Shown piece after piece: positions 22,505 through 27,066 of a DNA stretch of 40,066 nucleotides (its first letter is position 1; every line of letters starts with the position of its first letter). The notes under the pieces were generated by a model, which did no database searches, had not been told where the DNA came from, and saw nothing but the letters and a program-made list of their open reading frames with translations. The translations under genes were made by a program, and so were the position numbers. The DNA is taken from positions 1 through 40,066 of IMG/VR virus record IMGVR_UViG_3300024975_000027. One strand, given 5' to 3'. This DNA is from a virus.

Positions 22505-22542
22505 TACCTAGAAACTCTATTCCGTAAAACTCCTTTTTACGG
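22505..22542 (-). promoter_or_regulatory. Candidate late promoter overlapping a hairpin
   Basis: On the minus strand, TTTACG (-35-like), 16 nt, then TACATT (-10-like) precede the late leader. The same stretch holds an 8-bp inverted repeat CCGTAAAA-CTCCT-TTTTACGG (22522-22542) that includes the stop of the Q-like gene. A lambda-like pR' immediately after Q is the expected layout. The hexamer matches are 4/6 each, so this is a candidate only. Confidence 0.35.
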
Positions 22543-22944
22543 GCGAGCGGCTTTCTGCAGGGCCTCGACGCGCTCGCGCTGGGTGCGCTGGGCCTGAGCG
22601 ATACCACTGAGCCACGAGGCCAGCTGGTAGTGCGCCTGGTCGATGCGTGCAAACACCGTGGGCACCGAGACACACAGGCGGGCCGCCTTGTCTTTGACGC
22701 TGCCGCCGCCGGTGTAGACGGCCTCCACGGTGGCACGCAGATGCGACGGCAGGCTCTTGACGCCACGGTCAGTCTCTTCGGCCTCGACGCTGAGCATGGG
22801 GACTGTGGCCTCGGCATAGCCATCTCGACCGGCATCAGGGTCGGCCAGGTTTGGTGATGAGTAGCCAAGGCCGCCAACACCGACACCCAGCCGCCAACGC
22901 CCCCAATTCAACAACCGCCGCTCGATGTCTTCAATGCGAGCCAT
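22537..22944 (-). CDS. Q-like late transcription regulator
   Basis: The protein has 135 aa. The N-terminus (IEDIERRLLNWGRWRLG) is the usual start of Q/ArpU-like late regulators. Residues about 62-105 form an HTH-like region (SLPSHLRATVEAVYTG, then VKDKAARLCVSVPTVF), and the C-terminus is charged and helical. The RBS GAGG is 7 nt before ATG 22944. It follows the replication gene and origin and precedes the late operon, the position of Q in lambdoid phages. It would either antiterminate or activate transcription of the lysis and structural genes. Confidence 0.75.
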   Translation of the reverse strand: MARIEDIERRLLNWGRWRLGVGVGGLGYSSPNLADPDAGRDGYAEATVPMLSVEAEETDRGVKSLPSHLRATVEAVYTGGGSVKDKAARLCVSVPTVFARIDQAHYQLASWLSGIAQAQRTQRERVEALQKAARP

Positions 22945-23026
22945 ACAGAGCCTCGCTTTCTGGATGGGTCAGGCAAGCCGCTTTCACTTTTTCTTTCCTT
23001 CTCTCTAGAACAAAGATGAATGAGGA

Positions 23027-23284
23027 GTTACGCGGTTACGCGCGCGCGTAACTCGCAAACCCGCGCCGGATATAGCGAGTTACGCGGTTACGCAGTTACG
23101 CCGGGGTCCATACAGGAGATTCGTTCGCATGCACATGCACCACCTCGTGCCCGCCCGCCCGCCTGCACGCACACAGGCACACACGCGCCCGCATGCACAC
23201 GGGAGGGCCGCGTAACCGCGTAACCGCGTAACTTCCCGCGCCAATGCTGGGTTTCCGAGTTACGAGGGGCCGTAACGGCGTAAC
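23027..23284. repeat. Mirror-symmetric iteron array, candidate replication origin
   Basis: Twelve 8-mers of consensus GTTACGCG or its reverse complement lie in a non-coding gap. Direct: 23027, 23035, 23079, 23087, 23095, 23259. Inverted: 23045-23052, 23209-23216, 23217-23224, 23225-23232, 23269-23276, 23277-23284. Copies are back to back, 8 bp apart, so three of them form about 2.3 helix turns. The centre (23103-23208) has alternating purine/pyrimidine stretches (CATGCACATGC, CACACAGGCACACAC) and a GC-rich run. The array starts right at the end of the primase-polymerase gene. A pyrimidine-rich tract (22984-23006) flanks it. Origins with iterons next to the replication gene are common; function here is inferred. 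Confidence 0.75.
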
Positions 23285-25971
23285 TAGACATGGGGCGGGA
23301 TCTCCTGCTCGTCGTCGCCGTCGCCGCCCCGGGAGCCAGGCCCCAGGTACTTGCGCAGCTCGATGTCGAAGTCGAACCAGCACTCGGTGGCCCATTGGCC
23401 CATGGGCGTGCCTGGCGGCGGCTCTGTGACCTGCAGCATGCGGGTGGGCCGCACGTCAGTGGGCCGCATGCGTGACGGCCTGGTCTCGTCGGTCACCACG
23501 GGCTTGGCGGTCTTCACATAGGCGAAGTCCACCTTCATCACCTTGTCGGTGCAGGGCCTGCCCATCGTGTCGGAGATCCGCTTCACCATCGAGGTGAAGA
23601 GAGCCTGCTGCACCGGGAATCGGTCCCCGGTGCGCTGCGCATACTTCAGGTAGGCCCGGTAGGCCTGCTGGCAGGTACAGGCCCTGTAGGGCAGCGCCAG
23701 CTGGCCGTCCGACCATTCCAGCCAGAAGCGCTCGGGGCTCTTGCGGTTCAGGTCGATCAGGTTCTGTTTGGCCACCGTCAGCGGGGCATGTGCAAACGGA
23801 TCGAACCCGGACAGGTCATAGTGCAGCAGGTAGTGATAGAAGGCCTGCATGCCGCCCTCGCGCTTCCATTTGCCGAGGCGCGAGTAGAAGTCGGCCTCAC
23901 GGGCGCGGGGCGTGAAGATCACCAGGTAGCGGCGATCGCTGTTGTCCAGCGCCAGCGGCTGCAGCTCGTTCGAGTTGAACCACACGTTGATGTGGTTGCG
24001 CTCGGTGCGCCGGGGCAGGTTCTTCGGGTTGATCTGCACATCGACGCTGGTGATCAGTGCCTTGAGCCGGTTTTTGTTGTGCACCAGCTCGGCCCGCGAT
24101 GACACCTCGTCGCCGACCACAAACATCTTGCGGCTGCGCCAGTCGTTGAACTTGTCCTCCAGCTCGTCCTGGCCCACGGTGATGCCGTACTCGCCATAGA
24201 TCTCGACCACCAGGTCGGTCAGGAAGTTTTTGCCGGCGCCCTCGTCGCCGTGCATCACCACCGCCGAGCGCAGCTTCGCGCCGCGGTGCTGCAGCGGGTA
24301 GGCCAGCCAGCACATCAGGAAATGGCGGATCTCGTCGCGCTCGACCTCGTCGTCGGCCGTGCGGCTGGTGAGGTGCTCGATCAGCTCTTTGATGGGCTCG
24401 ACGTCGCCCTCTTTGGGCTCGGTCGGGAAACCGCCGAACAGGTTCACGTGCGTGTTCGGGTCGGCCTGCTCGGTGGGGTCAAACACCACCTTGTCGGGCA
24501 TCACCGTCCAGCGTCCGGTGGCCTCACGGGTGTGGGTGGACTGGCCACCCTTCCACAGCTTGGTGATGAAGGTGCCATGCGCGTGCGCCATGTTGGCAAT
24601 CTTCATGATGATGCGGGCCTTGCCGTCCCAGACGGTGTCGGTGCCGTAGATCAGCGCGAAGTTGGCCCGCAGGTCGTTGAACTTCTCCCAGTCGATGTCG
24701 TCGTCTGCGCCATCGCCGTCAGACTCGCCCTCGGGCTTGCTGGACTTGCCTCGGCCCTTGCCTTTGCCCTTGCCCGCCCCCTTGCCCCCGGCTGCAGACG
24801 CACTCGCGGTTTCTTCAGGGGGTGGGGGGTCAGGCCGCTCATCAGCGCTGGCCGGTCCAGCATCATCGGGCGGCGGCACCGAGCGCAAGCGAGGCCGGGG
24901 CTTGCTGAGCGTCACGCCCACAAGCGGGGCCAGCCAGGCCAGGGCATCTTTGAGCGAGTGCCCGCCGAACTCGACCACCAGGTCGATGGGGCTCATGCCG
25001 CGCCGTGTGCCCCAGTCTTTGATGCCGCCGGGCGTGATGGTCAGATCCTCCTGCAGATCGCGGCCCAGCGCCTTCGAAGTGATGCGGTAGCCCTCGCCGA
25101 ACTCGCTGGTGTGCGGCTTGGCGCGGTTGTTGAAGAGCACCTGCACCCAGTCGTGCAGGTTCGCCATGGCCGCATCATTCACAGCCTTGAAGTCCTTACC
25201 CTTCTCAGGCATGGGCGCGCCGGCTACAGCGGCCAGCTTGGGCTTGGCCGGCTGGCCATCGGCGGCAGCTTGGGCCAGCGCGGTGGCAACAGCGGCCTTC
25301 TCCGCCTTCTGCGCCTCGATGCTGCGCTCCACCATCACCCGCATATAGGTCAAGGCGTCCGGGTCTACCGGCACGGGCTCGGTCGGCGTGCCGCCCCAGT
25401 GCGCGCCGGTGCAGGTGAAATACTGGCTGTCGCAATAGACCTCAAGGCCGATGGCGTCATCCTTGAATTTCGGCGTGTGGCCCTGCAGGATGATGTGCAC
25501 GCCGGTGCCCGAAACACTGCGCTCGGTGTAGCTCGGGCAGCGAGCCATGATGTCTTGGCACAAGGGCGACACCTCGCCCGTCTCCAGGTCGATGGCGCCG
25601 TCGATGTCAATACCGAGCAAGCCATCGCCTGGCAGAAAGGCGAAGCCGATGCCCGCCCAGTGCTGCGAACCCTGCATGCACTTCAGCGCCTGCTCGAAGC
25701 TGACCAAAGTGCTGCGGTCCAACGGGTGGCCCTGTGGCACCTGCGGGTGCTCCAGGCTGGGGAATCCATCCTTGGGCTTGCCTCGTGGCCACCCCCGCGG
25801 CTTGCCCGAGGTGTAGAACGGCACCTTGGCCGGCTTGGAGCCCTTGCCGTGGTCGATGAACTTCCAGACCAGCCAGTGCGGCAGATCTCGCATGGCCGCC
25901 GGCATGTGACAGCGAAGCCGCTCGATGTCGGCGGCTCGCTGGGCTTTGGGGTCGGGCGGGCGCTCGGTCAT
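23284..25971 (-). CDS. Primase-polymerase/SF3 helicase (NrS-1-like)
   Basis: The protein has 895 aa. Residues 30-200 match archaeo-eukaryotic primase-type prim-pols: IDIDG (D122, D124), SGTGVHII (H159) and LEVYCDSQYF (about 176-185). A linker at 385-425 is very basic and repetitive (GKGKGKGRGKS). Residues about 430-720 are a helicase part: Walker A HGDEGAGKN (574-582), Walker B MFVVGDEV (616-623) and the SF3-type NVWFNSNE. Beyond about 720 lies a helical C-terminal part. The closest known protein type is the NrS-1 phage enzyme, which unites primer synthesis, polymerisation and unwinding. It would start replication at the adjacent iterons. The ATG overlaps the upstream gene (ATGA). Confidence 0.85.
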   Translation of the reverse strand: MTERPPDPKAQRAADIERLRCHMPAAMRDLPHWLVWKFIDHGKGSKPAKVPFYTSGKPRGWPRGKPKDGFPSLEHPQVPQGHPLDRSTLVSFEQALKCMQGSQHWAGIGFAFLPGDGLLGIDIDGAIDLETGEVSPLCQDIMARCPSYTERSVSGTGVHIILQGHTPKFKDDAIGLEVYCDSQYFTCTGAHWGGTPTEPVPVDPDALTYMRVMVERSIEAQKAEKAAVATALAQAAADGQPAKPKLAAVAGAPMPEKGKDFKAVNDAAMANLHDWVQVLFNNRAKPHTSEFGEGYRITSKALGRDLQEDLTITPGGIKDWGTRRGMSPIDLVVEFGGHSLKDALAWLAPLVGVTLSKPRPRLRSVPPPDDAGPASADERPDPPPPEETASASAAGGKGAGKGKGKGRGKSSKPEGESDGDGADDDIDWEKFNDLRANFALIYGTDTVWDGKARIIMKIANMAHAHGTFITKLWKGGQSTHTREATGRWTVMPDKVVFDPTEQADPNTHVNLFGGFPTEPKEGDVEPIKELIEHLTSRTADDEVERDEIRHFLMCWLAYPLQHRGAKLRSAVVMHGDEGAGKNFLTDLVVEIYGEYGITVGQDELEDKFNDWRSRKMFVVGDEVSSRAELVHNKNRLKALITSVDVQINPKNLPRRTERNHINVWFNSNELQPLALDNSDRRYLVIFTPRAREADFYSRLGKWKREGGMQAFYHYLLHYDLSGFDPFAHAPLTVAKQNLIDLNRKSPERFWLEWSDGQLALPYRACTCQQAYRAYLKYAQRTGDRFPVQQALFTSMVKRISDTMGRPCTDKVMKVDFAYVKTAKPVVTDETRPSRMRPTDVRPTRMLQVTEPPPGTPMGQWATECWFDFDIELRKYLGPGSRGGDGDDEQEIPPHV

Positions 25972-26566: not shown

Positions 26567-27066
26567 GGCGCGCCCCCGGTGGACGGCTTGCCCTCGGCAT
26601 TGCGCCGCACCAGGTAGCGCATGAACGCATCACCGGCGGCGACCAGCTGCCCCCACTGCTCCTCTATGGCGCGCACGTCGCGGTCAGACACATCGCCGTC
26701 AGCGGCGCGGGTGGACGCCTCGATCATCACGTCGCCGACCTCTTTGCTTACGCGGCCAAGGTGCATGCCCAGTTCCTGATCGGGCACATCGCAGGGCAGC
26801 ATCGGTAGCGGCAGCGCAAAGCGGCCCACCTCGGCCTCGATGGCATCGCCGATACGCAGATCGTCCGACCGGGTCATGATGCGCACCGCATCCAGCAGGC
26901 CCAGCTTGAAGCCCGGCGCGCCGGACAGCTCTTTGCGCAGCGTCTCCCAGGTCTTGCCCAGCTTCAACGCCATCTCGGGGCCGCCGTAGTCCTCGACCGT
27001 GTGGCGGGCCGCATCCAGCGGGCTCATGCAGACCGAATCGCTGCGGGGGGTGCTCCAACTGCTCAT
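26563..27066 (-). CDS. CII-like regulator (P2 CII/phage_CII family)
   Basis: The protein has 167 aa. The start is taken as ATG 27066; a longer open frame from 27096 is possible. The block SPLDAARHTVEDYGGPEMAL, then KLGLLDAVRIM, is the hallmark of the phage regulatory CII family. The rest is helical with IEEQWGQLVAAGDAF. Role by family: helps set the lysis/lysogeny choice. It is the second gene of the leftward early operon after the Cro-like gene. Confidence 0.75.
   Translation of the reverse strand: MSSWSTPRSDSVCMSPLDAARHTVEDYGGPEMALKLGKTWETLRKELSGAPGFKLGLLDAVRIMTRSDDLRIGDAIEAEVGRFALPLPMLPCDVPDQELGMHLGRVSKEVGDVMIEASTRAADGDVSDRDVRAIEEQWGQLVAAGDAFMRYLVRRNAEGKPSTGGAP

Follow-up and report, generated by a model that had tools for sequence, protein, structure and literature searches.

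A two-armed array of twelve iterons directly downstream of a primase-polymerase/helicase gene is a probable replication origin of a temperate phage

The viral DNA analyzed here (40,066 nucleotides, IMG/VR record IMGVR_UViG_3300024975_000027; hereafter the window) carries twelve copies of one hexamer, arranged in two inverted arms of six around a 106-bp centre, directly 3' of a gene encoding a primase-polymerase (prim-pol)/helicase. Comparison with related loci indicates that this array is very probably the replication origin of the phage. A sequence-only reading of the window had proposed an origin served by the adjacent enzyme. The comparison supports this: the array lies beside the gene across relatives, its iteron word evolves with the C-terminal DNA-binding domain of the protein, and self-loading helicases of the same layout have demonstrated origins.

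Exact GTTACG/CGTAAC sites occur twelve times at positions 23027-23284, six per strand and at the places given in the sequence-only reading, while only three further sites are present elsewhere in the 40-kb window. The features of the region are as follows:

23027, 23035, 23079, 23087, 23095 and 23259, plus strand: GTTACG sites
23047, 23211, 23219, 23227, 23271 and 23279, minus strand: GTTACG sites
23027-23042, plus strand: outer iteron pair of the left arm, GTTACGCG twice with 8-bp spacing
23045-23052, minus strand: single inverted iteron of the left arm, CGCGTAAC
23053-23078, no strand: 26-bp spacer with AAACCCGCGCC
23079-23102, plus strand: inner iteron triple of the left arm, 8-bp spacing
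23103-23208, no strand: centre, 106 bp, GC content 0.70
23209-23232, minus strand: inner iteron triple of the right arm
23259-23266, plus strand: single inverted iteron of the right arm
23271-23284, minus strand: outer iteron pair of the right arm
23284-25971, minus strand: gene for the 895-aa replication protein (AEP primase-polymerase, SF3-type (DUF5906) helicase and C-terminal winged helix)
23368-23739, minus strand: codons 745-868 of that gene, predicted winged-helix domain and proposed iteron reader
22537-22944, minus strand: following gene (135-aa product), which resembles antitermination Q genes in its position and is similar to genes of loci L005 and L055

From the outside towards the centre, each arm starts with two direct sites, followed by an inverted one, some 26 bp of spacer and then three direct sites, with 8-bp phasing within the outer pairs and the inner triples. 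The offsets from the centre (0, 8, 16, 48, 60 and 68) are identical in both arms, and all six opposite-strand site pairs share exactly the same axis, 23155.5. The arrangement had been described as mirror-symmetric; the two arms do match, but the symmetry is that of a dyad (an inverted repeat) and not of a mirror. In 50,000 random placements of twelve sites, no more than four pairs shared an exact axis, compared to six in the array. The largest cluster of a single 6-mer within 260 bp comprised twelve copies at the array and seven in the rest of the window, while Markov simulations of 40 kb gave clusters of 5-7. The array is therefore genuine and far beyond chance. A second word, AAACCC (often as AAACCCGCGCC), is found in the spacers between the outer and inner iterons (23053-23078 and 23233-23258); it is common to many relatives, even those with different iterons.

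The array was placed by the sequence-only reading next to the primase-polymerase gene, and it lies directly 3' of that gene: the outermost iteron of the right arm and the stop codon overlap by base 23284. The 895-aa product contains both an AEP primase domain and a hexameric helicase domain. The primase part was matched to PHROG DNA primase families and to PDB structures of the NrS-1 primase (residues 106-196) and 7ola, and DUF5906 was recognized at residues 573-681. An AlphaFold2 model of the helicase plus C-terminal part (pLDDT 88.6) has as its nearest folds the NrS-1 C-terminal region, AsfvPrimPol, poxvirus D5/E5 and the SaPI5 primase-helicase, all of them ring helicases. The C-terminal domain modelled alone has a predicted winged-helix topology (pLDDT 91); its fold matches are statistically weak and mostly to winged helices, including Cdc6 and the P4 origin-binding domain.

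The window is that of a temperate phage, with genes for an integrase, CI, CII-like and DksA-like proteins, then the prim-pol, the array and a small gene, followed by the small and large terminase, portal, major head protein, tape measure and tail fibre. The integrase gene lies 15 kb and the terminase genes 2 kb from the array. Since the 135-aa product of the small gene matched no Pfam or PHROG family, and no similar protein was found in cultured phages, it is called Q-like on position and weak resemblance. This gene is outside the origin, and other genes take its place in relatives.

Protein-first searches yielded 80 viral and 35 bacterial loci which, together with cultured phages and after removal of near-duplicates, gave a set of 81 relatives. 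Arrays were scored by the number of copies of one 6-mer, on both strands, per 300 bp. Beside the helicase stop codon this statistic reached at least 8 in 52 of the 81 relatives and at least 10 in 34, compared to 16 and none, respectively, of 32,748 windows elsewhere in these loci. Weak or degenerate arrays were found in about a quarter of the relatives. Two inverted half-arrays around a centre are the rule, beginning near the helicase stop codon in most cases; exactly six plus six sites occur in 14 loci, most loci have 5-7 sites per arm, and the arm offsets match. The sequence-only reading had made its proposal depend on finding such arrays in relatives, and one was indeed present beside the orthologous gene in most of the 81. 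The gene order, the layout and the conservation of that layout are direct observations.

Among cultured phages the array was found in Stenotrophomonas phage S1 and in Pseudomonas phages Turba and pAN. By inspection, Moraxella phage Mcat7 and Curvibacter phage PCA1 have iterons with an AT-rich centre, and Halomonas phage H4907 has iterons at the corresponding place. Two annotated ORFs, gp2 of S1 (L120, 2454-2804) and a 117-nt hypothetical ORF of H4907 (L121, 3753-3869), overlie the iterons and are unlikely to be real genes. The array was absent from the virulent helicase relatives KpV79, phiVC8, YSD1, PW916, CN1 and VBv52, and so is no general companion of DUF5906 helicases. In many viral relatives (e.g. 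L006-L049, with helicase ORFs of ∼470-580 aa) the primase and helicase are apparently encoded by separate genes, and the array is located behind the helicase gene; in the window the two are fused.

The converse approach started from the array: a search of IMG/VR for three GTTACG sites in tandem identified 56 stretches, 24 of which were inverted arrays. Fourteen of these 24 lay within 400 bp of a helicase detectable with the present queries, and one lay at 573 bp. Most true cases adjoin genes for DUF5906, DUF927 plus Cch-HTH, VapE-like or AAA_25 helicases. Arrays were located directly 3' of a DUF927-type helicase gene in L160 (3697-3903), L170 (4829-5035) and L174 (2462-2667); of these, L160 and L174 were scanned for domains, and both contain DUF927 together with the Cch HTH domain (HTH_56). 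The array of L168 lies 3' of a DUF5906 helicase gene and next to a Prim-Pol gene, that of L178 (4903-5089) directly 3' of a gene for an AAA_25 protein, and a scan with GTTGCG placed one (L210, 9431-9668) behind a VapE-like helicase. As arrays sit behind DUF927, VapE-like and AAA_25 genes, the design is carried by several initiator-helicase families. Hits in L164 (tandem GTAACCCC), L192 (REP-like), L194 and L200 were rejected as having a different structure.

The iteron word itself is not conserved. Fourteen words were counted among the relatives, including GTTACG, GTTGCG, GTCACG, TTTACG, GTGCGG, GTGCAG, ACTACG, ATCCAC, CGGCAT and CAGACA, and at least 18 changes are required on the helicase tree, on which the starred branches force at least three origins of GTTGCG. 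Other arrays read, for example, GTTGCGCG or GTCACGCG where the window has GTTACGCG. The word has usually changed at most or all sites together, and in several loci (L006, L019 and L076) all twelve sites carry the new one. Given this turnover, no match at the DNA level was to be expected in cultured phages, and none was found in a DNA-level search with the array.

Differences between iterons were found to follow differences between winged helices when corrected for the helicase (partial rank correlation 0.40; 0 of 500 permutations), whereas the correlation with helicase difference, corrected for the winged helix, was only 0.10. Within the closest clade, the correlation with the winged helix was no stronger than that with the helicase. 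Turnover together with covariation is the pattern expected if the C-terminal domain of one protein reads all sites: a change of specificity would force the twelve sites to change jointly, resulting in different words in different phages.

The centre of the array had been characterized as alternating purine/pyrimidine DNA. Its alternation does exceed that of shuffled sequences (0 of 300 shuffles reached it), but it covers 65% of steps, the longest run is 15 nt, it is interrupted by the C-run CCCGCCCGCCCGCC, and it is weaker than in most relatives. Among these, alternation was higher than in their own shuffles in the centres of 63 of 74 loci, with a median longest run of 20 nt. The centres have a median length of 79 bp and a GC content mostly of 0.5-0.7; few are AT-rich (such as L061 and, by inspection, L123 and L124). 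The triplets GTG and CAC together are about three-fold more abundant in them than in the background (median 8 versus 2.8), an excess that is significant in two thirds of the loci. In the window, GTG occurs eleven times and CAC once on the gene strand of the centre. GTG is a template start motif of the pRN1 and NrS-1 primases (PMC4234260, PMC8718748). The centre is a candidate site of opening and first priming, and may act through Z-DNA, weak stacking or priming triplets.

By analogy with known self-loading helicases, we infer how binding, loading, melting and direction might be brought about. One helicase hexamer would fill the six sites of one arm with its six C-terminal winged-helix domains, each site corresponding to one protomer, and a second hexamer would occupy the other arm in the opposite orientation. 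The two opposed rings, driven by ATP, would melt the ∼106-bp centre, the primase domains would start primers on the exposed strands of this GTG-rich DNA, and host enzymes would extend the two forks. The array could thus possibly load the prim-pol/helicase in two directions, as the sequence-only reading had suggested. The full combination, i.e., a melting and priming core that is prone to left-handed DNA, GTG-rich and alternating rather than AT-rich, two six-site arms each taken by one hexamer, and concerted replacement of twelve sites and winged helix, is put forward tentatively and may well not hold in its entirety. Since GC skew showed no switch at the array, it lends no support to the origin reading. 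Rfam and tRNA searches returned nothing.

A different function would be that of an operator, through which the replication protein or another regulator switches the downstream late or antitermination gene, or through which the protein regulates itself. The array does lie between the prim-pol gene and the next gene, upstream of the latter, and plasmid iterons often serve both as origin and in autoregulation. However, it remains with the helicase while the downstream genes vary among relatives; these fall into ∼15 similarity clusters, as sorted by automatic picking of downstream ORFs in which some clusters are single and possibly false ORFs. No promoter- or terminator-like site was detected at 22850-23450, the array lies at the 3' end of the prim-pol gene, away from its promoter, and two exact arms around a centre of 75-115 bp would be unexpected in an operator, which we therefore regard as very improbable. 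Partition (as a centromere), packaging or recombination appears even more improbable. There are centromeres and pac sites that consist of small repeat arrays, and the terminase genes are 2 kb away; against this, the integrase gene lies at 15 kb, the scanned genes (a subset of those in the window) include no Par protein, the arrays accompany the helicase gene irrespective of its location, and DNA is packaged without an array in virulent lineages whose helicases are related.

It might also be supposed that the arms extrude as a large stem-loop read by the replication protein, as in an origin of the pRN1 type, with the repeats as a by-product. The arms can indeed fold as one long hairpin, far better than shuffled sequences (z -7.1), pRN1 depends on a stem-loop of 100 bp located 3' of its prim-pol gene, and a stem-loop has also been predicted 3' of the homologue in BIP-1 (PMC4234260). 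Tandem copies within an arm would be unnecessary for a hairpin, however, and in the 25 loci with exact axes complementarity was 98% at iteron positions compared to 51% in the spacers, while spacing was kept. Moreover, BPP-1, the sister of BIP-1, also has a 2+2 inverted iteron set near the gene. We consider there to be little chance that the structure alone is what is read, though a stem-loop may play some part, and prefer an iteron-based origin.

The analysis provides a sequence-defined, directly testable candidate origin for a large and mostly uncharacterized set of temperate phages. The overall design is that of the rep-ori of PICIs and SaPIs, so the term "novel origin" used in the sequence-only reading is only partly right: the class is known, and what is new, to our knowledge, is its occurrence in complete temperate phages, the core that is not AT-rich, the exact 6+6 geometry and the word turnover. 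Searches of the open full-text literature uncovered no earlier description of such inverted arrays in phages. A rep-ori design that had been called unique to phage-satellite islands would be common to complete phages and at least four helicase families, which bears on the source of satellite replicons. The 14 words form a natural series of initiators and iterons with which to study DNA recognition by a ring helicase and its loading in the form of two opposed rings.

In PICI origins, two iteron sets flank an AT-rich region, and a Gram-negative PICI has a rep-ori that supports the replication of a plasmid (PMC6092414); a 2018 report described this design as unique to PICIs and present in no other known bacterial replicon. 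The C-terminal domain of SaPI Rep binds iterons directly downstream of its own gene, apparently as two hexamers (PMC7581432). The window resembles the rep-ori of SaPIbov1, SaPI5 and EcCICFT073 in that a self-loading helicase gene is immediately followed, on its 3' side, by the origin (in the window, the proposed one) and two sets of short iterons flank a centre; in SaPI5 the helicase is likewise fused to an AEP primase, and its primase-helicase (7ola) is among the fold matches. It differs in its centre, which is GC-rich (0.70) and partly alternating rather than AT-rich, and in its arms, which are exact dyads of six sites with 8-bp phasing. Unlike a PICI element, which is a satellite lacking virion genes, it encodes virion proteins (large terminase, portal, head, tape measure and tail fibre) together with integrase, CI and CII.

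SCCmec Cch and Cch2 are likewise helicases that bind an origin, and short iterons follow their genes downstream (PMC7581432); L160 and L174, whose arrays are of the same type as that of the window, encode the Cch HTH domain. Cch2 has three AAGTG iterons in direct repeat, in contrast to two six-site arms. Phage P4 alpha resembles the 895-aa protein as a fused primase/helicase/winged helix that binds origin iterons (PMC4234260), and its origin-binding domain (1ka8) is a weak fold match to the C-terminal domain; its primase is of the TOPRIM type, and the likeness is one of protein, origin layout aside. No DnaA box (TTWTNCACA) was found anywhere in the window, which distinguishes it from DnaA-dependent iteron plasmid origins.

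The NrS-1 prim-pol is the same type of protein and provides the nearest solved structure of the helicase region. No iteron array has been reported for NrS-1; since its genome is reported to contain only two copies of the 8-nt recognition site, located mid-genome (PMC7102993), it is a poor model for the DNA site.

The proteins of pRN1 (ORF904) and of BIP-1/BPP-1 combine AEP primase, SF3 helicase and winged helix as in the window, with the origin 3' of the gene; this origin is essential in pRN1 and predicted in BIP-1, and a bidirectional model with two hexamers has been proposed (PMC4234260). The potential to form a large stem-loop 3' of the prim-pol gene is shared with pRN1, in which no iterons were recognized, whereas the unit in the window is twelve iterons. 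In BIP-1, a stem-loop origin was predicted in 2014 at the 3' side of the homologous gene, and suitable iterons were not found (PMC4234260). In BPP-1, unlike the window, the set does not exceed 2+2 and is located ∼470-600 bp beyond the gene. This inverted set, TTTGCCTCGTTTGCCTCG / CGAGGCAAACGAGGCAA, surrounds an AT-rich centre past the annotated bbp28 ORF (L126, ∼26610-26711) and is a candidate origin distinct from the stem-loop proposed in BIP-1.
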